DNA of 38,965 nucleotides. It comes from Candidatus Omnitrophota bacterium. Its GTDB lineage: Bacteria; Omnitrophota; Gorgyraeia; JABMRN01; RBG-13-46-9. The first letter of the stretch is position 1. Each line of letters opens with the position of its first letter. Positions 2,427-12,290 of this stretch are shown here, piece after piece. Position numbers and translations under genes: made by a program. The stretch spans positions 1-38,965 of the forward strand of contig JADHYM010000010.1 of the NCBI GenBank assembly GCA_016782445.1, given 5' to 3'. The notes below the pieces were generated by a model, which was not told the DNA's origin, made no database searches, and was given only the letters and a program-made list of their open reading frames with translations.

Positions 2427-2813
2427 TTACTTATCTCCTTTCTTATCGATTTCCTTGGCTTGTTCGTACAAAAGATCGCAGAAGAATTTAAGAAAAGTGT
2501 TTTTGTTGTCCTCCTCAATTTTAGTAAATCCGCAACCCACGTCATACAGCGAGCCATTTTCAGTAGAGGGCTTGTTTTTCCATATAACGGCGGCCTTGGC
2601 ATGGACGGGATTCAGGGCCTTTGGTATTTCTATTTGCACTTCAAGAGGGTCGTCTATTTTAAGCGATTTGTCACTAGTTTCAAAGCGAAGGCCGAGCGGT
2701 GATATGTTTTTCGTGGTGGTCTCGGCGATAATTTTATCCTTGTGTATTACGCGTATCTTAAGAGGGGTCTCCACGCGTAAATAGCGGCGACGCTCCTTGA
2801 ATTGCTTGGCCAT
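2427..2813 (-). CDS. Single-domain PilZ protein (PilZ-1)
   Basis: 128 residues, essentially one PilZ domain, the cyclic-di-GMP binding beta barrel. Both ligand motifs are present: R-x3-R at Arg9-Arg13 (RRYLR) and N-x-S-x2-G at Asn36-Ser38-Gly41. A longer frame reaches back to 2849, but the ATG at 2813 has a clear GGAG ribosome site seven bases upstream (2821-2824) and gives the usual PilZ length. It is the first gene of the operon running to corA and lies downstream of the palindrome-bearing promoter at 2840-2868. No output domain is attached, so its partner is unknown. One of five such genes in the first 12 kb. Confidence 0.88.
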   Translation of the reverse strand: MAKQFKERRRYLRVETPLKIRVIHKDKIIAETTTKNISPLGLRFETSDKSLKIDDPLEVQIEIPKALNPVHAKAAVIWKNKPSTENGSLYDVGCGFTKIEEDNKNTFLKFFCDLLYEQAKEIDKKGDK

Positions 2814-2839
2814 AATAATGCTCCTTTGTTTATTTGGCG

Positions 2840-2868
2840 AGTATATCATAATTATGATATAGCGTCAA
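2840..2868 (-). promoter_or_regulatory. Sigma70-like promoter of the PilZ-1/panD/def/corA operon
   Basis: On the minus strand TTGACG (2863-2868) and TATACT (2840-2845) are separated by exactly 17 bases. The expected transcript start is near 2833, about 20 bases before the PilZ-1 ATG, which leaves room for the GGAG site. The spacer is filled by a perfect palindrome listed separately. Confidence 0.75.
2842..2861. promoter_or_regulatory. 20-base perfect palindrome in promoter spacer, candidate operator
   Basis: A perfect 20-base palindrome (TATATCATAA and its complement) occupies the spacer between the -35 and -10 boxes and overlaps the -10. This is the classic position for a dimeric repressor or a MerR-type twisting activator. 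The regulator is not identifiable here. An AT-rich palindrome can arise by chance, but its placement is suggestive. Confidence 0.5.
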
Positions 2869-2928: not shown

Positions 2929-3097
2929 TAGTTAGCGCCTCCAGGGCGCTTGCCGCATATAAAGCTTCCGAGGCGCGCCTGCCGAGCGGCGAACTTTTGC
3001 GCCGAATTCGTATTGTTTACACCCTCGCCAGCGACCTTTTGGTATTCTTATAACAATAAATGGGGTGAGCAGCGAGGTAGGCGCGGTTCGGAAGCTT
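2929..3097. repeat. Dispersed repeat copy A (136-base core plus shared left flank)
   Basis: Core 2962-3097 starts AAGCTTCCGA and ends TCGGAAGCTT. The next ten or so bases inside each end are also imperfectly inverted (GGCGCGCCT against AGGCGCGG). Two near-identical copies exist at 10192-10327 and 17675-17809. The 33 bases to the left (2929-2961), including a GCGCC/GGCGC hairpin, also match the flank of copy C with few differences. The right end overlaps the first base of the stop codon of the gene ending at 3097. No coding sequence is plausible inside. Confidence 0.9.
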
Positions 3098-5379
3098 TAT
3101 GCATAGGACATGCTCTGCTTGGAGCCGATAAGAAGAAGGATGAGGGTTGCGGTGTTCAGAAGGACGAGGAGAAAGCATGTTACTGGAATGCCGAGAATTG
3201 GCATAAGGAGCGCGCTTACGCATAGCGCACCCACGAAGGATCCAAGAAGATCGACTGAGTAGGTCGCGGAAACAGAGCGGCTCACCTCAGTGCCCCGGGA
3301 ACCCAGGTATATCCGGTTGGCCAACGGGTATTGAAGGCCCCCTATAAAGCCTGCAATAAGCGGCAAGAACGCAAATATGTTGCCGCCGATAGAATAGAAA
3401 GGTTCGCTTCTCAAACCGCCAAAAGCCTTGATGCACAAAAGAAGAAAAATCGGGTAAGCGACCACGAGCCACTGTATTTTAATATACGCGCCGTAGGGAT
3501 TTTTAATGAGATCCAGTTTTCTTGTCATGTACATGCCGCCCGCTCCCAACCCCAGCATGAAAGAGGTGATGATTATGCCGATTTTGTAGTAGAGGTAGCC
3601 GTAGAGGGCCTGGAACGAGAGGACGATTATAATCTGGAAGGCTATCTCGCTCATTCCCGTCGTACCGAGGGCAAGAAGCGTTACATGTCTTACGAAGCCT
3701 TTTCCCCGCCTTAAAAATAAAAATACGAAAAATAGCGCGAAAATGCCTGTAACGGAAATTAGCAATAATCGCGGCGTTGTAAAGTACATGAAAAATTTTG
3801 ACAGAGAAAAACTCAAATACGAGCTCCAGAGAACCGTGTCGTAAAAATAGGAAATCGGCGAGAGGTCAAAATTTATTCTCACGGCGTTTTGCACACGGCC
3901 CAGCGCATTTTTTAAATAGCTTTGCCTTTCCCGGGATAAAAGCGAAAAGAGGTAGTAGTCCCTTACGTAAAGCGTGTGTATGCCTTTCTTTGCAAGGCGT
4001 GCCGCGATAAATTCAGGATCAAGCGAGATAAGGCCCTCATTCTTTGAAAGCAAAAAATATGCGGTGTTCCCCGGGATGATCTTCACATCCGGGAAGACGC
4101 TCTCTGCCGTTTGCGAAAGGGATTCCAGAAACATTGCCTGTTCACGGCTTAAATAGTTGGCGCTCGAGCTCACCGAAAAACCAACCACGCCCTTATCTTT
4201 TAAGAGGGATTTTATCTCTTCGAAAAATTCCTTCGTGTAAAACCTGTTTATCTCGGCAGTATACGGGTTGGGGAGATTTATAATTATGGCATCGTAGAGC
4301 GTTTTGCTCGTTTTCACAAAAAAGCGGCCGTCCGTATTTTTTATCAAGACCCGTTTGTCGTCGAGTGAATAGAATGGTTTTTCCTTAAGATATTTCCGGG
4401 AGAGAGTAATAATTAACGGATCCAGCTCTACGTAATCAATCCGGGCTCCGGGGTATTTTAGGATTTCTGCGAGAACTTCTCCCCCGCCGCCGATAAGCAA
4501 AATGTCTTCGGGTGAATCGAGAAAAACCATGGGAAAATGAACTGTTTCTTCGGCCGTCAGAGGGTCATTTGAACTGAAAAGAAAAAGTCCGTTTTGAAAG
4601 AAATTAATCTGGCCGGCCCTCTCGGTCACGGCCACTTTACCGTATATCGAATCCTCAACGTCGAGAACGTTAAACCCTTTCCACGATAGCCTTTCAGATT
4701 CTTTTTCAAGATAGTTCACGCCGCCCAATAAGCCCGCTGTTATTACCGCGCCGGTGAGCAAAATAGCAGAAGAGCGAAGGGCATTTTTTAGAAACGCTTT
4801 TTTACATGCGTACACGATCCATGCGGCTGAAATGAGGTTTAGGGCCGACAAAAGAAATGCTGCCGGCAGGCACGTAAAATACTTGATAAGAAAAAAGCTG
4901 GTTAAAAGCCCACCCAGTGCGGCACCTGCAGCTTCGAGCGTGTAGGCGTAACCGATTTTTTTGGAAGGTGTTGCTGCAACTACCATCTGCGAGCCCAGGA
5001 CAAATAGGAATGCTACAAGGAGCGCTATCGGTGTGAAAATAAGAACGGCGGCGGCGAGGAGAGCTCCGATGCCTGGTATCTCGCCTATCCCCACATGAAA
5101 AGCCAGTTTGAGGCATCTGGCAGCCAGGATACTTAATGGCACGAAGGCGGCAAGTCCGATTTGCAAAAACGAAAAGAGAGCTCGTTTTTCTTTTATTCTT
5201 TCCGAAAAAAATCGCGCAAGCGGCCCGCTTCCGACGCTACCGCCGAGAAGCCAGACGCTGAGCGCAAATCCGATAGATAATTCATTGCCGTAAAAGGAAG
5301 TGAAAAATTCGCGAAGAAGGAGTATCTGGCTTGATACGGCCGTTATGCCGAGAACGAATAGTGCGTAGATTATTCCCAT
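3097..5379 (-). CDS. Polytopic membrane protein with spermidine-synthase-like domain, catalytic Asp replaced by Asn
   Basis: 760 residues: several membrane helices (about 5-215), a soluble spermidine-synthase-like Rossmann domain (about 235-500) and more helices (about 525-755). The nucleotide-binding signature is present (GGGGE 297-301, ELDP 318-321, D350 in NTDGRFF). The segment that in true aminopropyltransferases carries a catalytic Asp (D-x-x-D-P) reads N-L-P-N-P (368-372), so polyamine synthesis is doubtful. The ATG at 5379 overlaps the end of the radical SAM gene by 10 bases; longer upstream readings only shadow that gene. The stop codon runs into repeat copy A. It belongs to the family of membrane-fused spermidine-synthase-like proteins whose substrate is, to my knowledge, undefined. 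Confidence 0.8.
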   Translation of the reverse strand: MGIIYALFVLGITAVSSQILLLREFFTSFYGNELSIGFALSVWLLGGSVGSGPLARFFSERIKEKRALFSFLQIGLAAFVPLSILAARCLKLAFHVGIGEIPGIGALLAAAVLIFTPIALLVAFLFVLGSQMVVAATPSKKIGYAYTLEAAGAALGGLLTSFFLIKYFTCLPAAFLLSALNLISAAWIVYACKKAFLKNALRSSAILLTGAVITAGLLGGVNYLEKESERLSWKGFNVLDVEDSIYGKVAVTERAGQINFFQNGLFLFSSNDPLTAEETVHFPMVFLDSPEDILLIGGGGEVLAEILKYPGARIDYVELDPLIITLSRKYLKEKPFYSLDDKRVLIKNTDGRFFVKTSKTLYDAIIINLPNPYTAEINRFYTKEFFEEIKSLLKDKGVVGFSVSSSANYLSREQAMFLESLSQTAESVFPDVKIIPGNTAYFLLSKNEGLISLDPEFIAARLAKKGIHTLYVRDYYLFSLLSRERQSYLKNALGRVQNAVRINFDLSPISYFYDTVLWSSYLSFSLSKFFMYFTTPRLLLISVTGIFALFFVFLFLRRGKGFVRHVTLLALGTTGMSEIAFQIIIVLSFQALYGYLYYKIGIIITSFMLGLGAGGMYMTRKLDLIKNPYGAYIKIQWLVVAYPIFLLLCIKAFGGLRSEPFYSIGGNIFAFLPLIAGFIGGLQYPLANRIYLGSRGTEVSRSVSATYSVDLLGSFVGALCVSALLMPILGIPVTCFLLVLLNTATLILLLIGSKQSMSYA

Positions 5380-6506
5380 ATTCCGGCTATCGGGTAGCCG
5401 CAGAACTTGCATTTGGAGCTCGCGATATTGTTCTCCATGACAAAATATCCGGCCCTGCCGACTACTGTTTTCTTGCACCGGGGACAGTACGTATTGTTGC
5501 CCGGATCCTGAGGCACATTTCCGATATAGGCGAAATGCAGGCCTTCTTTTTGGGCTATTTCCCTTGCCATACGGAGTGTTTTGACCGGCGTAGGAGGTAA
5601 ATTTTTAAGTTTATACATGGGCCAGAAGCGCGAAAAGTGGACAGGGACCTCTTTTCCCATGTTTTCCCGTATCCAGACGCACATATTCTTTATCATTACG
5701 GGGTCGTCGTTTAAAGTAGGAATGAGGAGATTGGTGAGTTCCACCCATATGCCGTTTTTTTTAGCTATTTTTATCGTTTCAAGCACGGGCTCGAGCCTCG
5801 CGCCGCATACCTCGCTCATAAAGCTCTCGCTGAATCCCTTGAGATCGATATTTGCCGCGTCAATAACGCCGGAGAGTTCCTCAAGCGGTTCCGGATTTAT
5901 AAATCCGGACGTCACCCAGACATTCTTAATTCCCTTTGCTTTCGCGAGCTTTGAAGTGTCGTACATATATTCGTAGAAGACAATGGGCTCGGAATACGTA
6001 TAAGCAATGGAGGCGCAACGCTCCCTTTGGGCGGCGTTAACGACTTCCTCGCAAGGAAGGTATCTCTCTACAACGTCCTCCGGGTTTTCCTGAGATATCT
6101 GCCAGTTCTGGCAGTATTTACATCTTAAATTGCATCCCGCGGTAGCGATGCTGAACGACCTTGAGGCAGGCAGCATGTGGTATAGGGGTTTCTTTTCGAT
6201 CGGGTCCACATGAATTGAGCAAGGAAGTTCATAGACGAGGCTATAAAGCTTTCCGTTTCTCGGCTCTCTCACCCTGCAGGGTGAGCGCTGGCCGTTTTTC
6301 AGAACGCACCGGCGCGGGCAAAGCGCGCACTCGACCGTACCACTGTCTATGACCCGATAGTGCCGAGCCTCTTTAAAATATCCTGTTTCGGCGAGCGCGT
6401 CGGCGCCTGAAAGGGCCCGCTCGATAAGTTTTGTGCCGAAAAAACTTCCGGCGACGGCGATAGACGCGCCCTTCAAAAATTTTCTACGTGTTATTTTCCT
6501 GAACAT
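5370..6506 (-). CDS. amrS: AmmeMemoRadiSam-type radical SAM protein with Tat signal
   Basis: 378 residues. The N-terminus T-R-R-K-F-L-K-G followed by a hydrophobic stretch is a twin-arginine signal or anchor (residues 6-24). A cysteine cluster (Cys60, 63, 67, 77 in a C-x2-C-P-x2-C context) precedes the radical SAM C-x3-C-x2-C at Cys125, 129 and 132. Two further pairs (Cys341/344 and Cys366/369) near the end look like a zinc ribbon. The overall pattern is that of the AmrS/PflA-like radical SAM family. The usual partners AmrA (AMMECR1) and AmrB (Memo) are not in the window. It overlaps the upstream hydrolase by 23 bases and the downstream spermidine-synthase-like gene by 10. A radical SAM enzyme carrying a Tat leader implies folding with its clusters before export. 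Confidence 0.87.
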   Translation of the reverse strand: MFRKITRRKFLKGASIAVAGSFFGTKLIERALSGADALAETGYFKEARHYRVIDSGTVECALCPRRCVLKNGQRSPCRVREPRNGKLYSLVYELPCSIHVDPIEKKPLYHMLPASRSFSIATAGCNLRCKYCQNWQISQENPEDVVERYLPCEEVVNAAQRERCASIAYTYSEPIVFYEYMYDTSKLAKAKGIKNVWVTSGFINPEPLEELSGVIDAANIDLKGFSESFMSEVCGARLEPVLETIKIAKKNGIWVELTNLLIPTLNDDPVMIKNMCVWIRENMGKEVPVHFSRFWPMYKLKNLPPTPVKTLRMAREIAQKEGLHFAYIGNVPQDPGNNTYCPRCKKTVVGRAGYFVMENNIASSKCKFCGYPIAGIWE

Positions 6507-8226
6507 CGGTATCTTTTTTAATCGTCTCCGGCTCTTTTACTTCGGGCGGCGGGCCCTCGGATTCGCATTTTTCATTCAGCCATTTTTTTAAAGTTTGGAT
6601 GACCTCGATGTCGGGGGAGTAGTATTTTACCTTCTCCGGGTCCTTGGCTGTTTTGCCCAGGAAGTGCCCCAGCGTTCTAAAATATACGCTTCGCGTGTCC
6701 TTAAGGCCCGCGTCCCGAAAAGCTTCTTCGATATTTTTCACACCGGAGGCAGAGGAAATTAAGTCGTCTTTTCCGTATATAATCAAGACGGGAACGCGTG
6801 TGTCCTTTATGCCGGAAAGAAAGTTTTGCTTATCGATCTCGATCATCCTTTTTACAAAAACCGGTTTTTGTAGCACAAAAACGCCGTCACGACTAGCGTT
6901 TTTGACGATACTCTCGGTGTATTTCTCCAGGGAGCGAAGCGTTGCCTCGTATGCGCCGTCGAATTTTTGCATATACGATATATGCCGGGATGCGCTTTCG
7001 CTTTCGGGATCAAGTATTTTTACGGGTAGCCTGGGACTTAGCATGACAAGCCCTGCAACCGGAAATTTCGTGAGGCCGGCCTGCGTTAGTAACAATGCGC
7101 TTTCCGAATGCGCAACGATAAATACATTTTTTCCATCAACCCTTTCGTTCGAATATAGAAGGTCTAAAGCGTTTTTCATGTCGTCGAGATCGTTTTTTAT
7201 ACTGGCGAACATATTGTCCCCCTGGGACTTTCCGGTGCCCCGCCTATCAAAGCGAAGAGTTATAAAACCTTCCTCGCTCATAGCGTCGGCAAGAAAAGAA
7301 TAAAGCCCTGCATTGTCGCGGGTCGCGGCGAGTTCGCCGGCCACGAACAAAACGGCCGGAAACGCGTCTTTTTCAAAGACGCCTTCGGGAATAGTGAGCG
7401 TTCCGGAGATCCCGACGTCTCCAGAGGGTATCATGACTTCTTCCGAGATATACGCCGCATTTTCGATTACAAGCGGCATCTTCGTTAATTTTTTAATACC
7501 GGGCACCTTTCTAGCGGTGAATCCATAATCCGATTTTATCGAAAGTATTAGAATGCTTTTATCCTTTTTTGAAACCCAGATCTTGGCTTCCGGAGCGGCG
7601 TTGGTTTTTACGATGAGGCACTCGGTTTTAACGGTTTTTCCGGCATAGGTAAGAAGCTCGTCTTTTATTGAAGTAAGAACAACCTTTCCCCGCGCGGGCG
7701 GCATAAGGGGCCGGCCCAGCAAGAAAATATTGAACGGCTGCGAGCCGCCGCGCGAGAAATCGTACTTTTCGACAAGAGGAAGGTATGTCACGAGAACCCG
7801 TGGGCTAAAAACGGATATGTCGTTTCGGCAAGGCACATCCATGGCGGCGCTGAAGCGCGAATTGTATGAGGAAAGAAAATCGAATGCTCCGGGTTTTCCC
7901 TCTATGTGCGTTGTTTCCGCCAGGGTATCGCCGTTTCTTTTTTCCGAAAAAAATTTCTCGAAAACATGCCCCTTTTTCTTAAAGACAATTTTAGCATTTA
8001 CCTTAGTGCCATATATATTCCGCGGGTAGAAAGCCGTTTCCCTGTATATGATCCTGTCTTCAGTTTTGTGCTTATCGATAACTACCTCTTGCACCTCACC
8101 CGTATTGATTTCTGCCATATAGCAGAACCGCTCATGCTGTTCTTTTTCAAACACAAGAAAAACAAACACAAGCGTTATTGCGATAGCCATGACGGCCGCT
8201 GCCAGGAAAAAACGCATCCATCTCAT
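6484..8226 (-). CDS. Membrane-anchored alpha/beta hydrolase
   Basis: 580 residues. One N-terminal membrane segment (about 5-27) and a beta-rich region of unknown role (about 30-250, weakly reminiscent of DUF3108) precede an alpha/beta hydrolase domain (about 265-570). The likely catalytic triad is Ser374 in A-H-S-E-S, Asp487/488 in YGKDDL and His521 in TLGHFL. The nucleophile elbow departs from G-x-S-x-G, having Ala372 and Ser376 in place of the glycines. RFDRRGTGKS (about 325-334) is the usual oxyanion-side loop of esterases and acyl peptidases. The tail is Pro/Glu-rich. The start ATG shares ATGA with the DUF4416 stop. Substrate unknown; being anchored, it probably acts outside the cytoplasm. 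Confidence 0.75.
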   Translation of the reverse strand: MRWMRFFLAAAVMAIAITLVFVFLVFEKEQHERFCYMAEINTGEVQEVVIDKHKTEDRIIYRETAFYPRNIYGTKVNAKIVFKKKGHVFEKFFSEKRNGDTLAETTHIEGKPGAFDFLSSYNSRFSAAMDVPCRNDISVFSPRVLVTYLPLVEKYDFSRGGSQPFNIFLLGRPLMPPARGKVVLTSIKDELLTYAGKTVKTECLIVKTNAAPEAKIWVSKKDKSILILSIKSDYGFTARKVPGIKKLTKMPLVIENAAYISEEVMIPSGDVGISGTLTIPEGVFEKDAFPAVLFVAGELAATRDNAGLYSFLADAMSEEGFITLRFDRRGTGKSQGDNMFASIKNDLDDMKNALDLLYSNERVDGKNVFIVAHSESALLLTQAGLTKFPVAGLVMLSPRLPVKILDPESESASRHISYMQKFDGAYEATLRSLEKYTESIVKNASRDGVFVLQKPVFVKRMIEIDKQNFLSGIKDTRVPVLIIYGKDDLISSASGVKNIEEAFRDAGLKDTRSVYFRTLGHFLGKTAKDPEKVKYYSPDIEVIQTLKKWLNEKCESEGPPPEVKEPETIKKDTDVQENNT

Positions 8227-8762
8227 GCCTTAAACCCTTTTCGTATTTCTGCAAGATGTATCCGGCGCACAGAATTAAAAAACTCAATATAATCTTTTGT
8301 CCGGTAATCGGGATAGGTCCATTCCAGGGGAACGAACGTTCCTTGCACGAACTGTAGTTCCACCTCCGCATATATGTGTGAGTCCAGGTAGATCCGATGG
8401 CTTCTCTCTTTGGTGGTGAAAAGCGTAAGGCTTGAAAGCCCTATGTATCCCGGGTCGATATTTACACGCCTTCCGGTTCTCGAGGAAAGTTTTTTTTCCA
8501 GTTTGTTTGTGTAAAGCTTTATGCGGTGGTTTTTCGAAAGAGAAACAGGTTTGCAAAAAACGATGAAAAGCCTTTTGAGCCCGCGCCCGAACTCCTTTTC
8601 GTAATACCGGGTATGGTCGAAATTAAAAATGCGGCTTTCGTTTTCTATGGGGCCGAATTTTTTTTGAAGACTCTTTTTTACGACATCAAAAAGCCGCACA
8701 TCGCCGCCTATGAGCCCTACGATTAGTTTTGCGGAAGGTTGGTTTGTTGTGGGGACGCCCAT
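8223..8762 (-). CDS. DUF4416 family protein
   Basis: 179 residues matching the DUF4416 pattern throughout: S-R-I-F-N-F-D-H-T-R-Y-Y, a central T-N-K-L-E, V-N-I-D-P-G-Y-I-G, H-R-I-Y-L and E-W-T-Y-P-D-Y. These conserved His, Asp and Tyr positions suggest an enzyme or ligand binder, but the family has no assigned function that I know of. The start lies one base after the upstream PilZ stop, and the stop shares ATGA with the hydrolase start. No signal peptide, so it should be cytoplasmic. Confidence 0.8.
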   Translation of the reverse strand: MGVPTTNQPSAKLIVGLIGGDVRLFDVVKKSLQKKFGPIENESRIFNFDHTRYYEKEFGRGLKRLFIVFCKPVSLSKNHRIKLYTNKLEKKLSSRTGRRVNIDPGYIGLSSLTLFTTKERSHRIYLDSHIYAEVELQFVQGTFVPLEWTYPDYRTKDYIEFFNSVRRIHLAEIRKGFKA

Positions 8763-8763
8763 T

Positions 8764-9147
8764 TTAAGGGGTGTTTGCTACTTGCGCTATAAAGTCGAAT
8801 AATTTTTTCTCGCCCGCGTCGTGGAATCTCGTGAATTTTATCCCGGTGTTGAAAAGTCTTCTCTCGGCATTTTTGCTTTCCTCGGCAGCCTCGGAAGACC
8901 ATGCCACTACGCCCCATGCCCTTATAAGATCGCTGTAGCCGGCAAGCTTGATCTCGAGCCTTAAGGGCATATCCTTTTTAAATTTCTCGTCCAAAAGGAG
9001 TTTTATGCCTTTTGTCGAGATGTCTACTCCTTTGGCGCTCGCGTCGTTACCGTTCAGATAATAGCGTACGGCTAGGTCTACCTCAAACCGGTCGGCGCTT
9101 CTCCTGTCGCTGCCGTCCCAGTAGCCCTTTAGCTTAACAATGCGCAT
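8764..9147 (-). CDS. Single-domain PilZ protein (PilZ-2)
   Basis: 127 residues forming one PilZ domain, the c-di-GMP receptor barrel. The binding motifs are Arg16-x3-Arg20 (RSADR) and Asp42-x-Ser44-x2-Gly47 (DISTKG), both intact. The start at 9147 has no clear ribosome site; it lies 22 bases after the stop of a possible small hydrophobic peptide. Translation may depend on coupling to upstream reading. It sits between PilZ-3 and DUF4416 in the operon led by the HIT gene. Confidence 0.87.
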   Translation of the reverse strand: MRIVKLKGYWDGSDRRSADRFEVDLAVRYYLNGNDASAKGVDISTKGIKLLLDEKFKKDMPLRLEIKLAGYSDLIRAWGVVAWSSEAAEESKNAERRLFNTGIKFTRFHDAGEKKLFDFIAQVANTP

Positions 9148-9246: not shown

Positions 9247-9612
9247 TTATTTGAGCTGTAAGTTTATGTAGTCCAGAAGGTCTTGCTTATCTTTTGGGGA
9301 TATATTATCGAAGAAAATCGCGACGTCATAATGCATGAATTTCCCGTCGATTATTACAGGGTGCTCCCTTACGACGACGCCCTCGGTAACGATCCTCAGC
9401 TTTTTTGACTCATTAGGCGCTTTGCCCTTGGTTTCGGGAACTACCAGCGTAACCTGTATCCTCGACAAAAGAGGTAGCTCCTTTTCGATTTTACAATAAA
9501 CTCCTGAAGCGCTTAAGTCGAGTGTTTTTGTAATGATGTTAACGTCGCCTGCCTCAACCTTTAATGAAATGCCCTCGTCTTTTATCCTGGGATATTTTCT
9601 TTTTTCGCTCAT
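9247..9612 (-). CDS. Single-domain PilZ protein (PilZ-3)
   Basis: 121 residues, one PilZ domain. Arg5-x3-Arg9 (RKYPR) and Asp32-x-Ser34-x2-Gly37 (DLSASG) are intact, so c-di-GMP binding is expected. The C-terminal half carries an insertion-like Lys/Asn-rich strand pair (TKGKAPNESKK). The start ATG follows an AAGGA site. It is the second gene of the operon begun by the HIT gene, 11 bases after its stop. Confidence 0.88.
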   Translation of the reverse strand: MSEKRKYPRIKDEGISLKVEAGDVNIITKTLDLSASGVYCKIEKELPLLSRIQVTLVVPETKGKAPNESKKLRIVTEGVVVREHPVIIDGKFMHYDVAIFFDNISPKDKQDLLDYINLQLK

Positions 9613-10418: not shown

Positions 10419-10775
10419 CTATTTTTTTTCTTGGGCGCCGGCTGCTTCTTCGGCAGCTTTTTTAGTCGATTTTTTCCAGCATCCCTTAGTGCAGAAAAAT
10501 TTGCCGTTGCGATAATACCAGAAGTTTTTTATGTCTTTATTGCACGAGACACAATTTTTTGGGCGCTGTTTTTTTTCTTCGGGTTTCGCTTCCTCGGGTT
10601 TCTTTTCTTCTGCTTTTTTCGCCGGTGCCGGGGGAGCGCTTTCCGGATTTTTAGCAGGCTTTTCTTTTGCAGCCTCTTTCGGAGCTTCTTTTGGCGCTTC
10701 TTTCGGCGAGGTTTCTTTTATCTCGTTCGGCTTCTTCTCTGGTTCGTTTTGGTTTTCTTTTTTTTCTTCGTTCAT
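10419..10775 (-). CDS. Lys/Ala/Pro/Glu-rich protein with C-terminal zinc-ribbon-like motif
   Basis: 118 residues starting at the ATG (10775) that shares ATGA with the PilZ-4 stop. The first 70 residues are low complexity, with repeated KEAP-like units and runs of Lys, Glu, Ala and Pro, and are probably disordered. Residues from about 74 hold a compact motif with Cys-x2-Cys (NCVSCNK) and, after an aromatic stretch (FWYYRNGKFFC), Cys-x3-Cys (CTKGC). This is a plausible treble-clef or MYND-like zinc site. I do not recognise the family. Longer readings begin inside PilZ-4 and are rejected. Cytoplasmic, function unknown. Confidence 0.65.
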   Translation of the reverse strand: MNEEKKENQNEPEKKPNEIKETSPKEAPKEAPKEAAKEKPAKNPESAPPAPAKKAEEKKPEEAKPEEKKQRPKNCVSCNKDIKNFWYYRNGKFFCTKGCWKKSTKKAAEEAAGAQEKK

Positions 10776-11113
10776 AGTTTTGATCCTATCCAATTTTTGT
10801 AAAGGTACTCCAGGACCTTTGCCTTGTCGCGAGGGGCGATTTTTGTAAACCGCACACCTGAGGTCGTACCGTCCGTAATTTCTTTTGACCAGCATACCTC
10901 GCCCGCGGCAAAAACAGGAATGTTGTCGCCCGGTATGCTGAACTCAATATTCAAGGGCGAGCCTTTTTCCAGTTTCTCATGCGAGAAAAGCCGGGCCCCT
11001 TCCCTGGAGAGATCTGTCACTTTTGTTTGGAACCTAGTAAGGGATTTTTCTACCGAGCTGCAGAAAATGCTCAAACTCGTATTGAATCTTACGTGCCTTC
11101 GCCTTTCAGTCAT
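10772..11113 (-). CDS. Single-domain PilZ protein (PilZ-4)
   Basis: 113 residues, one PilZ domain with Arg5-x3-Arg9 (RRHVR) and Asp34-x-Ser36-x2-Gly39 (DLSREG) intact. A longer frame reaches 11194 across the terminator hairpin, but the ATG at 11113 has GGGAG five bases upstream and gives the standard N-terminal RRR start. A CTGCCGGCAG palindrome (11127-11136) lies directly upstream of this ribosome site. The stop overlaps the start of the zinc-ribbon gene, so the two are co-translated. Confidence 0.87.
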   Translation of the reverse strand: MTERRRHVRFNTSLSIFCSSVEKSLTRFQTKVTDLSREGARLFSHEKLEKGSPLNIEFSIPGDNIPVFAAGEVCWSKEITDGTTSGVRFTKIAPRDKAKVLEYLYKNWIGSKL

Positions 11114-11165
11114 CCCTTCTCCCTGCCTGCCGGCAGCCTTAATTAAACACCGAAAAAAGTGAACG

Positions 11166-11206
11166 AAAAAAAGAGGAACAGATTTATCATCCATTCCTCT
11201 TTTTTT
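11166..11206 (-). terminator. Rho-independent terminator after the TIGR04073-like gene
   Basis: A stem of GAGGAA with TTCCTC extended by A and T runs (13 pairs, loop about 15 bases) is followed by a T tract on either strand. On the minus strand it ends the gene at 11233-11553, 27 bases after its stop. Confidence 0.75.
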
Positions 11207-11675: not shown

Positions 11676-12047
11676 TCAAGAGGCACTTTTTTTGATAAGA
11701 GTGCCAATGATAGCGGATATTCTTTTGCGGTCCTCTTCTTTAATATCGATAAATTCGATGCCTGTATCGTACATCTCTTTTGACTTCTCCCCTATCTCTC
11801 TTTTTTTGACCACCCATACGACTGTACCGGTGCAAGCGATCCTTGTACCTGTCTTATCCTCAATATCAAGCTCCAGGCTTACACCCTGAAAAAGGCCGAG
11901 GTTTTCTTCAACGACCACGCATATGCCGCCGGAGCCCAGATTTTCCGTATGTGTTGCAAACGGGCGTGACTTCTCGTTTTTCCTTATATGAATGAGGCAC
12001 TTATAATGCGCTCGCGGAAATCTTCTTCTGTCAATTCCGTCCCACAT
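11676..12047 (-). CDS. Single-domain PilZ protein with altered second motif (PilZ-5)
   Basis: 123 residues. Arg8-x3-Arg12 (RRFPR) is intact, but the second motif reads Asn36-Leu-Gly38-Ser-Gly-Gly41, with Gly in place of the usual Ser38, so ligand binding may be altered. The ATG at 12047 is set by an AAGGAG site six bases upstream; a longer frame to 12146 crosses the promoter and is rejected. It is transcribed from its own promoter, divergently from gspA, and ends at the 11625-11667 hairpin. Confidence 0.85.
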   Translation of the reverse strand: MWDGIDRRRFPRAHYKCLIHIRKNEKSRPFATHTENLGSGGICVVVEENLGLFQGVSLELDIEDKTGTRIACTGTVVWVVKKREIGEKSKEMYDTGIEFIDIKEEDRKRISAIIGTLIKKSAS

Positions 12048-12067
12048 CTTGATCTCCTTCTTGAGTA

Positions 12068-12096
12068 AGTATATATAACGATTAGGGTAAATGCAA
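12068..12096 (-). promoter_or_regulatory. Sigma70-like promoter of PilZ-5
   Basis: Minus-strand TTGCAT (12091-12096) and TATACT (12068-12073) with a 17-base spacer; the AAGGAG site and ATG follow about 20 bases later. Confidence 0.68.
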
Positions 12097-12290
12097 GTAA
12101 AATTCTGTTTTCGTCGATCGGTTGCGTCCCTCGCAGTCTGTATCATTTTTTGCGGTGCGAGGGACTCCCTTCGGTCGTAGCTGGAATCGTTATACGGTGA
12201 CCGTTAGACGGTACGTTTAACGTACAACGCATGACGTTTCGAGCTACGACACCGTTCAGCGTTTCACGCCTACCTCGGAAGTATTTTTGC
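12097..12290. repeat. Structured divergent intergenic region between PilZ-5 and gspA
   Basis: No gene is supported here. Contents: the second-family hairpin GTCCCTCGCA / TGCGAGGGAC (12126-12135 and 12156-12165) with the shared CTTCGGTCG tail; a longer inverted pair GTCGTAGCT / AGCTACGAC (about 12174-12250) enclosing a GTACGT-TTA-ACGTAC hairpin and several ACGGT/ACCGT words; and CGCCTACCTCG (about 12268-12278), which also occurs near the right end of the 136-base repeat. Confidence 0.6.

Follow-up and report, generated by a model that had tools for sequence, protein, structure and literature searches.

A probable exported AmmeMemoRadiSam system in Omnitrophota, marked by a radical SAM protein with a Tat leader and a linked membrane spermidine-synthase-like protein

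Background

Radical SAM (S-adenosylmethionine) enzymes are generally held to be cytoplasmic, because SAM and the assembly of iron-sulfur (Fe-S) clusters are located there. Here we describe two adjacent genes in a 38,965-nucleotide stretch of DNA (the window: contig JADHYM010000010.1 of assembly GCA_016782445.1), which comes from a metagenome-assembled genome (MAG) of a Candidatus Omnitrophota bacterium that is 86% complete with 2.4% contamination. One gene encodes AmrS, a radical SAM protein with a twin-arginine translocation (Tat) leader; the other encodes a polytopic membrane protein, here called SPDM, whose spermidine-synthase-like domain has lost its catalytic Asp and kept its nucleoside pocket. 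Judging from their sequence relationships, we think it probable that the two genes supply the part encoded at this locus of an extracytoplasmic AmmeMemoRadiSam system, in which SPDM would serve as a membrane nucleoside-binding subunit.

The AmmeMemoRadiSam system is represented by three NCBIfam models (TIGR04335 for protein A, TIGR04336 for protein B and TIGR04337 for the radical SAM protein), all of which are matched over their curated cutoffs in the source genome. Adjacency of the three genes is typical of the system and not strictly demanded by the models; the genes are apart in the source genome, and adjacent or fused in many relatives. A first-pass annotation of the window had proposed periplasm-facing radical chemistry belonging to a new pathway. 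The former is supported as the likely setting by the Tat leader and by the way leader type follows TatC among relatives, while the latter gives way to a relocated form of the known system, since the genome encodes an apparently exported Memo-AMMECR1 fusion whose counterparts lie next to AmrS in many relatives.

Results and discussion

AmrS and its leader

AmrS belongs to TIGR04337 (382 bits against a cutoff of 220), and its leader exceeds the cutoff of the Tat model TIGR01409 (20.6 against 16.7 bits), in agreement with the initial description of an AmrS carrying a twin-arginine leader; the Pfam TAT_signal model scores the same leader under its cutoff (13.3 against 22.7). The radical SAM residues C125, C129 and C132 are invariant across 40 aligned AmrS, and CxxxCxxC is found in 86 of 86. 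The AlphaFold model (pLDDT 93.4) has a high-confidence core and a low-confidence leader, with the KEARHY segment within the confident core. A fold search returned pyruvate formate-lyase activating enzyme (3cb8) as the nearest solved structure and otherwise general radical SAM relatives; AmrS differs from 3cb8 in having additional N- and C-terminal Cys motifs as well as the leader, and no glycyl-radical enzyme turned up beside AmrS, no search aimed at one having been made. The leader type of the window AmrS recurs in relatives from many families and phyla. Two variants of the locus were also seen: a tandem pair of Tat-leader AmrS copies next to a single SPDM (L049:3435-5703 and L142), and an AmrS broken into two open reading frames (ORFs) next to an intact SPDM, by frameshift or assembly error (L203, G154:C35).

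Pairing of AmrS and SPDM

A bait search with SPDM in named genomes yielded 38 loci with at least 2.5 kb on each side. In 29 of these well-flanked loci, from various phyla, AmrS is no more than 4 kb away from SPDM, and in 33 either AmrS or Memo-AMMECR1 is. Within the phylum (237 genomes), at least 63 of 112 strong SPDM matches lie within 4 kb of AmrS (32 co-directional, 31 convergent), against a chance expectation of about 0.5%, and a strong SPDM match occurs in none of the 20 AmrS-negative genomes, among the genomes listed. The same pairing is present in loci from Acidobacteria, Latescibacterota, Desulfobacterales, Chloroflexi and Elusimicrobia, with the proviso that some archaeal and other labels of MAG contigs may reflect binning errors. 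On these counts (29/38 and at least 63/112) chance pairing was rejected, and the conservation beyond the source genome on which the first-pass reading had depended was found in several gene orders and phyla. It could still be argued that the two genes are co-located without any joint function, as some SPDM and AmrS genes are unlinked, but the recurrence of the pair in different arrangements and the lack of strong SPDM matches in AmrS-negative genomes make this exceedingly improbable. In relatives of family f11, a run of ORFs of 219, 221 and 236 amino acids that follows SPDM was considered as well and judged to be a separate run.

SPDM, a membrane protein with a pseudo-spermidine-synthase domain

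SPDM consists of seven transmembrane (TM) segments, a spermidine-synthase-like domain and seven further TM segments, 14 being predicted in total, and AlphaFold models it with confidence (pLDDT 92.9, pTM 0.92). The protein matches Spermine_synth with 88 bits and passes the cutoff of NF037959, the fused MFS/spermidine synthase family (60.6 against 40 bits), and it fails those of spermidine synthase proper (TIGR00417, 86.5 against 249.6; PRK00811, 96.9 against 260). Foldseek matched the domain to the solved aminopropyltransferases 1uir and 3o4f with a TM-score by target length of about 0.75. Inter-TM loops rich and poor in Lys/Arg alternate in both halves of an 18-sequence alignment, from which the positive-inside rule predicts cytoplasmic N- and C-termini and a domain that faces the extracytoplasmic side.

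Asn368 (401 when counted from an upstream GTG) occupies the column of the first DxxD Asp when SPDM is aligned with 1uir and 7xif; by analogy with the human and E. coli enzymes, that Asp would be the catalytic base. The alignment and the TM prediction support what had first been annotated as a pseudo-spermidine synthase in a membrane shell. Across 106 SPDM family members the column holds Asn in 65 cases and Asp in 12, and the window protein has a second Asn at position 404 (counted from the GTG), which is often D or E in the family. The nucleoside-binding residues E351, D353 and D383 are nearly fixed over the same relatives, and N411, R412, Y414, G297, E310 and H314 are also retained. SPDM resembles the spermidine synthases 1uir, 3o4f and 7xif and the NF037959 proteins in fold and nucleoside-binding motifs, and differs from spermidine synthases in the Asp-to-Asn replacement, the placement of the domain between two 7-TM halves, its predicted position outside, and the link to AmrS.

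Such a protein might be an active enzyme that transfers aminopropyl, aminocarboxypropyl or methyl groups at the outer face within an extracytoplasmic system, acting on the AmrS substrate before or after AmrS does, for example in a polyamine or metallophore pathway. The near-invariant nucleoside-binding residues and the six others kept with them would suit an enzyme of this kind, as would the members that keep the Asp, the frequent acidic residue at 404 and the FeoA/FeoB-looking genes near the pair in a few relatives. Most members, however, have replaced the catalytic Asp (the window protein having Asn at both 401 and 404, counted from the GTG), and an acceptor or donor pathway was not seen nearby, so we consider an active transferase rather unlikely. 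A SAM-type nucleoside pocket that persists while the catalytic Asp is lost makes the handling of SAM, and not spermidine synthesis, the most likely role of SPDM.

Memo and AMMECR1 partners

Neither Memo nor AMMECR1 was found within the window, and to that extent the earlier statement that the usual AmrA and AmrB partners are absent stands; it does not hold for the genome, in which a search found both and which led us to reject the idea that they are missing. Contig C20 encodes a Memo-AMMECR1 fusion that is above cutoff for both TIGR04336 and TIGR04335 and begins with the signal peptide MKRIALILLLMLFSAPISFA. The leader-bearing set thus differs from the AmmeMemoRadiSam system as modelled in its export signals, its fused A and B proteins and its linkage to SPDM, and it exists beside a separate leaderless AmrS and a leaderless second Memo (C31) in the same genome.

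In many relatives the fusion adjoins AmrS or SPDM, and those fusions with an intact, readable N-terminus begin with a signal peptide or a lipobox, a few others being truncated at contig ends or having unclear starts. In one locus (L059:7754-10303, the same as L145) AmrS, Memo and AMMECR1 domains are joined in a single 849-residue protein with a single N-terminal leader. Of the Memo metal ligands, the three His columns inspected are conserved in 27 of 27 sequences and the Cys in 23 of 27. Human MEMO1 binds iron via two His and one Cys (PMC11081632). FeoA/FeoB-looking iron transporter genes occur near AmrS-SPDM in L042, L045 and L050, human Memo being likewise an iron binder.

Leader type, TatC and separate Tat mini-genes

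As a test of export, we asked whether the leader type of AmrS follows the presence of the Tat machinery, represented by TatC. Under a first rule, Tat-type leaders numbered 17 with TatC and 6 without, Sec/TM-type leaders 5 and 45 (Fisher p 9e-8), and leaderless AmrS 26 and 0. Five of the six Tat-type cases without TatC began with MRR without SRRxFLK, or had extended starts, and a stricter SRRxFLK-like rule was therefore adopted, under which the counts are 17 and 1, 5 and 50, and 26 and 0 (p 2.5e-11). Leader type switches several times along the AmrS tree, and even family f2 holds both kinds (Tat with TatC in G027, Sec-type without TatC in G023 and G109). In several genomes the gene tatC is itself a close neighbour of AmrS or SPDM, and in the window's genome TatC is encoded on contigs C24 and C9. 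Export of AmrS accordingly appears, on these comparisons, to be under selection; the first-pass reading had hinged on the RR motif being a Tat leader and on a pairing conserved beyond this genome, and as far as sequence can show it was refuted on neither count.

In the AmrS tree, exported or SPDM-linked AmrS split from a leaderless paralogue with support of 100/100. Distinct from that paralogue is a clade of 26 AmrS, all with TatC, that have no leader of their own. Directly downstream of AmrS, in 22 of these 26 cases and in 0 of 73 for leader-bearing AmrS, lies a gene for a mini-protein of 47-78 amino acids that as a rule has a Tat motif, a hydrophobic stretch, a KEAxYY motif and a C-terminal LAG (for example L065:10619-10792, L147:2621-2797 and L055:8780-8944; also L102, which is outside the 26-locus count). 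Leader-bearing AmrS have the KEAxYY motif in their own N-terminal part, and the mini-protein may donate this strand to AmrS in trans. Once these genes had been found, the leaderless clade was dropped as evidence against export. A second mini-protein, which has a TM segment and an EAKYW motif at its C-terminus, is encoded upstream of leaderless AmrS (L065:9386-9625, L064:9221-9442, L148:5938-6177). The Tat mini-proteins of formate dehydrogenase regions (TIGR02811) are likewise small, separate Tat-signal proteins beside an Fe-S enzyme, but of three AmrS mini-proteins scanned one matches that model weakly, with 21 bits, below the cutoff of 48, and the AmrS ones carry KEAxYY and the C-terminal LAG.

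A radical SAM gene adjoined by short leader peptides, whose conserved C-terminal motif ends in LAG, also calls to mind a ribosomally synthesized and post-translationally modified peptide (RiPP), and the KEAxYY peptides could be substrates of AmrS whose segment has been fused to the enzyme in other lineages. The motif, however, belongs to the AmrS N-terminus itself, leaderless paralogues included, and because the segment is modelled with confidence within the AmrS fold, docking of a donated strand is the simpler explanation; a RiPP-like role seems to us very unlikely.

The leaders might instead merely anchor AmrS, the enzyme staying on the cytoplasmic face with SPDM as a docking platform. SAM, low-potential electrons and Fe-S assembly are all cytoplasmic, many AmrS leaders resemble plain N-terminal TM segments, and one clade has no leader of its own. 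Against this, leader type tracks TatC, the leaderless clade has its separate Tat mini-gene, Memo-AMMECR1 carries signal peptides, and the positive N-termini of the leaders favour an N-in/C-out orientation, so that a cytoplasmic placement is improbable.

Redox partners in relatives

In relatives, a NosR/NapH-like protein that combines FMN_bind, Fer4_5 and Fer4 domains is encoded upstream of the leaderless AmrS; it shares these domains with NosR/NapH-like flavo-Fe-S proteins, scores far under the NosR cutoff, and is located in relatives and not in the window. In the group with Sec leaders, a DsbD_2 protein with three invariant Cys (23/23) stands between or beside AmrS and SPDM. These neighbours would fit work by AmrS outside the cytoplasm, and may supply it with electrons in the relatives. 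At other places the source genome has one DsbD_2 gene and one FMN_bind gene.

The gene run and its surroundings

The four genes from SPDM to DUF4416 (Table 1) lie on the minus strand with the boundaries first annotated, and overlap by 10 nt (SPDM/AmrS), 23 nt (AmrS/hydrolase) and 4 nt (hydrolase/DUF4416). Both remaining identifications are borne out: the hydrolase-like protein matches Hydrolase_4 (54 bits against a gathering cutoff of 27) and does have the atypical A-H-S-E-S elbow, and the DUF4416 protein matches PF14385 (180.6 bits, gathering cutoff 27). The proposal that the whole four-gene operon is the system survives in its AmrS-SPDM pair, which is conserved, and not in the other two members, which were rejected as core parts, being lineage-restricted. 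The order PilZ-looking gene/DUF4416/hydrolase/AmrS is maintained in L038, L039, L041 and L043, and hydrolase and DUF4416 are kept beside AmrS only in the nearer relatives of the window. The hydrolase nucleophile, moreover, is lost in most of the relatives compared: the elbows of five read HGN, HAS, HSE, YGE and HGE, and among the six hydrolases only those of the window and of L041 retain Ser. Both genes are thus accessory to the pair.

Table 1. Coordinates of the gene run and of features within AmrS and SPDM (window positions)
Feature	Position	Strand	Remarks
SPDM gene	3097..5379	minus	ATG start; frame open back to GTG at 5478; 760 aa
Spermidine-synthase-like domain of SPDM, residues ~237-500	3880..4671	minus	Foldseek; predicted extracytoplasmic by loop charge
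Asn368 codon (401 from GTG), catalytic Asp position	4276..4278	minus	alignment
AmrS gene	5370..6506	minus	378 aa; N-terminal Tat leader; radical SAM
CNLRCKYC radical SAM motif, residues 125-132	6111..6134	minus	Cys conservation
FKEARHYRVID segment of AmrS, residues 44-54	6345..6377	minus	motif borne by separate Tat mini-proteins in leaderless clade
Tat leader MFRKITRRKFLK...ADALA, residues 1-39	6390..6506	minus	sequence; possible signal-peptidase site ALA|ET
Alpha/beta-hydrolase-like gene	6484..8226	minus	membrane-anchored; Hydrolase_4 match
DUF4416 gene	8223..8762	minus	PF14385 match
PilZ-looking gene	8764..9147	minus	identified by eye; belongs to the gene run, upstream

Five small PilZ-looking ORFs, recognised by eye, surround the operon (window 2427-2849, 8764-9147, 9247-9612, 10772-11194 and 11676-12146). 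On contig C9 of the same genome (L207, G000:C9:1-9240), the C-terminal part of a second SPDM comes first, and then, largely in the window's order, a PilZ-looking gene, one for a lipoprotein-like product, tatC and YqeY; this contig resembles a second copy of the window neighbourhood, and is possibly a duplicated region or contamination from a relative.

A proposed mechanism

In an extracytoplasmic AmmeMemoRadiSam system of the kind we favour, AmrS would fold with its Fe-S clusters in the cytoplasm and then be exported by Tat, to act at the outer face of the inner membrane together with the Sec-exported Memo-AMMECR1 fusion encoded elsewhere in the genome. SPDM would be the membrane subunit, its domain on the same side as AmrS, and would bind, present or carry SAM (or a product of its breakdown) for AmrS. 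Gene content, linkage, leaders, the lost Asp and the retained pocket are read directly from sequence; from these, export, the side on which SPDM faces, its handling of SAM and the electron supply in relatives are inferred. A fuller scheme, in which SPDM moves SAM across the membrane to AmrS, flavin/thiol relays give electrons, and some lineages use the strand-donating Tat mini-protein, is put forward tentatively.

Several points weigh against this interpretation. The localisation of AmrS, SPDM and Memo-AMMECR1 is in each case read from sequence only; we know of no SAM pool outside the cytoplasm; and no electron donor gene is adjacent in the window. The catalytic Asp is still present in about 11% of the SPDM tested, neither AmrS nor Memo-AMMECR1 lies close to SPDM in five well-flanked loci, and 49 of the 112 SPDM in the phylum do not adjoin AmrS, among the AmrS listed. 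The leaders of many relatives are of the Sec/TM type, which is hard to understand as a route for a protein with Fe-S clusters. Leader types were assigned from hydropathy and motif rules and not with a trained predictor, the stricter Tat pattern was set after the first result had been seen, and the p-values overstate the leader-TatC case because the genomes are related and not independent. The absence of TatC is judged from MAGs, and in the 86%-complete MAG studied here the Memo-AMMECR1 gene sits on a different contig from AmrS-SPDM. The analysis as a whole is bounded by MAG data, rule-based leader calls, phylogenetic dependence and a C9 contig that is possibly foreign.

Conclusions

In the open-access literature (subscription papers and preprints being outside the scope) we found neither an account of radical SAM enzymes that are exported nor one of a pairing of AmrS with a spermidine synthase, and no function for the AMMECR1-Memo-AmrS trio in the open-access literature searched; as far as that literature shows, an exported AmmeMemoRadiSam set would be newly described. 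If the interpretation is correct, the selected export of this set would break the cytoplasmic-only rule for radical SAM enzymes, and one would have to ask by what route SAM and low-potential electrons reach the outside. It would also give the AMMECR1-Memo-AmrS trio, of which Memo and AMMECR1 have relatives in humans, its first concrete setting: a partner in the membrane, partners for redox chemistry and a defined side on which to work.

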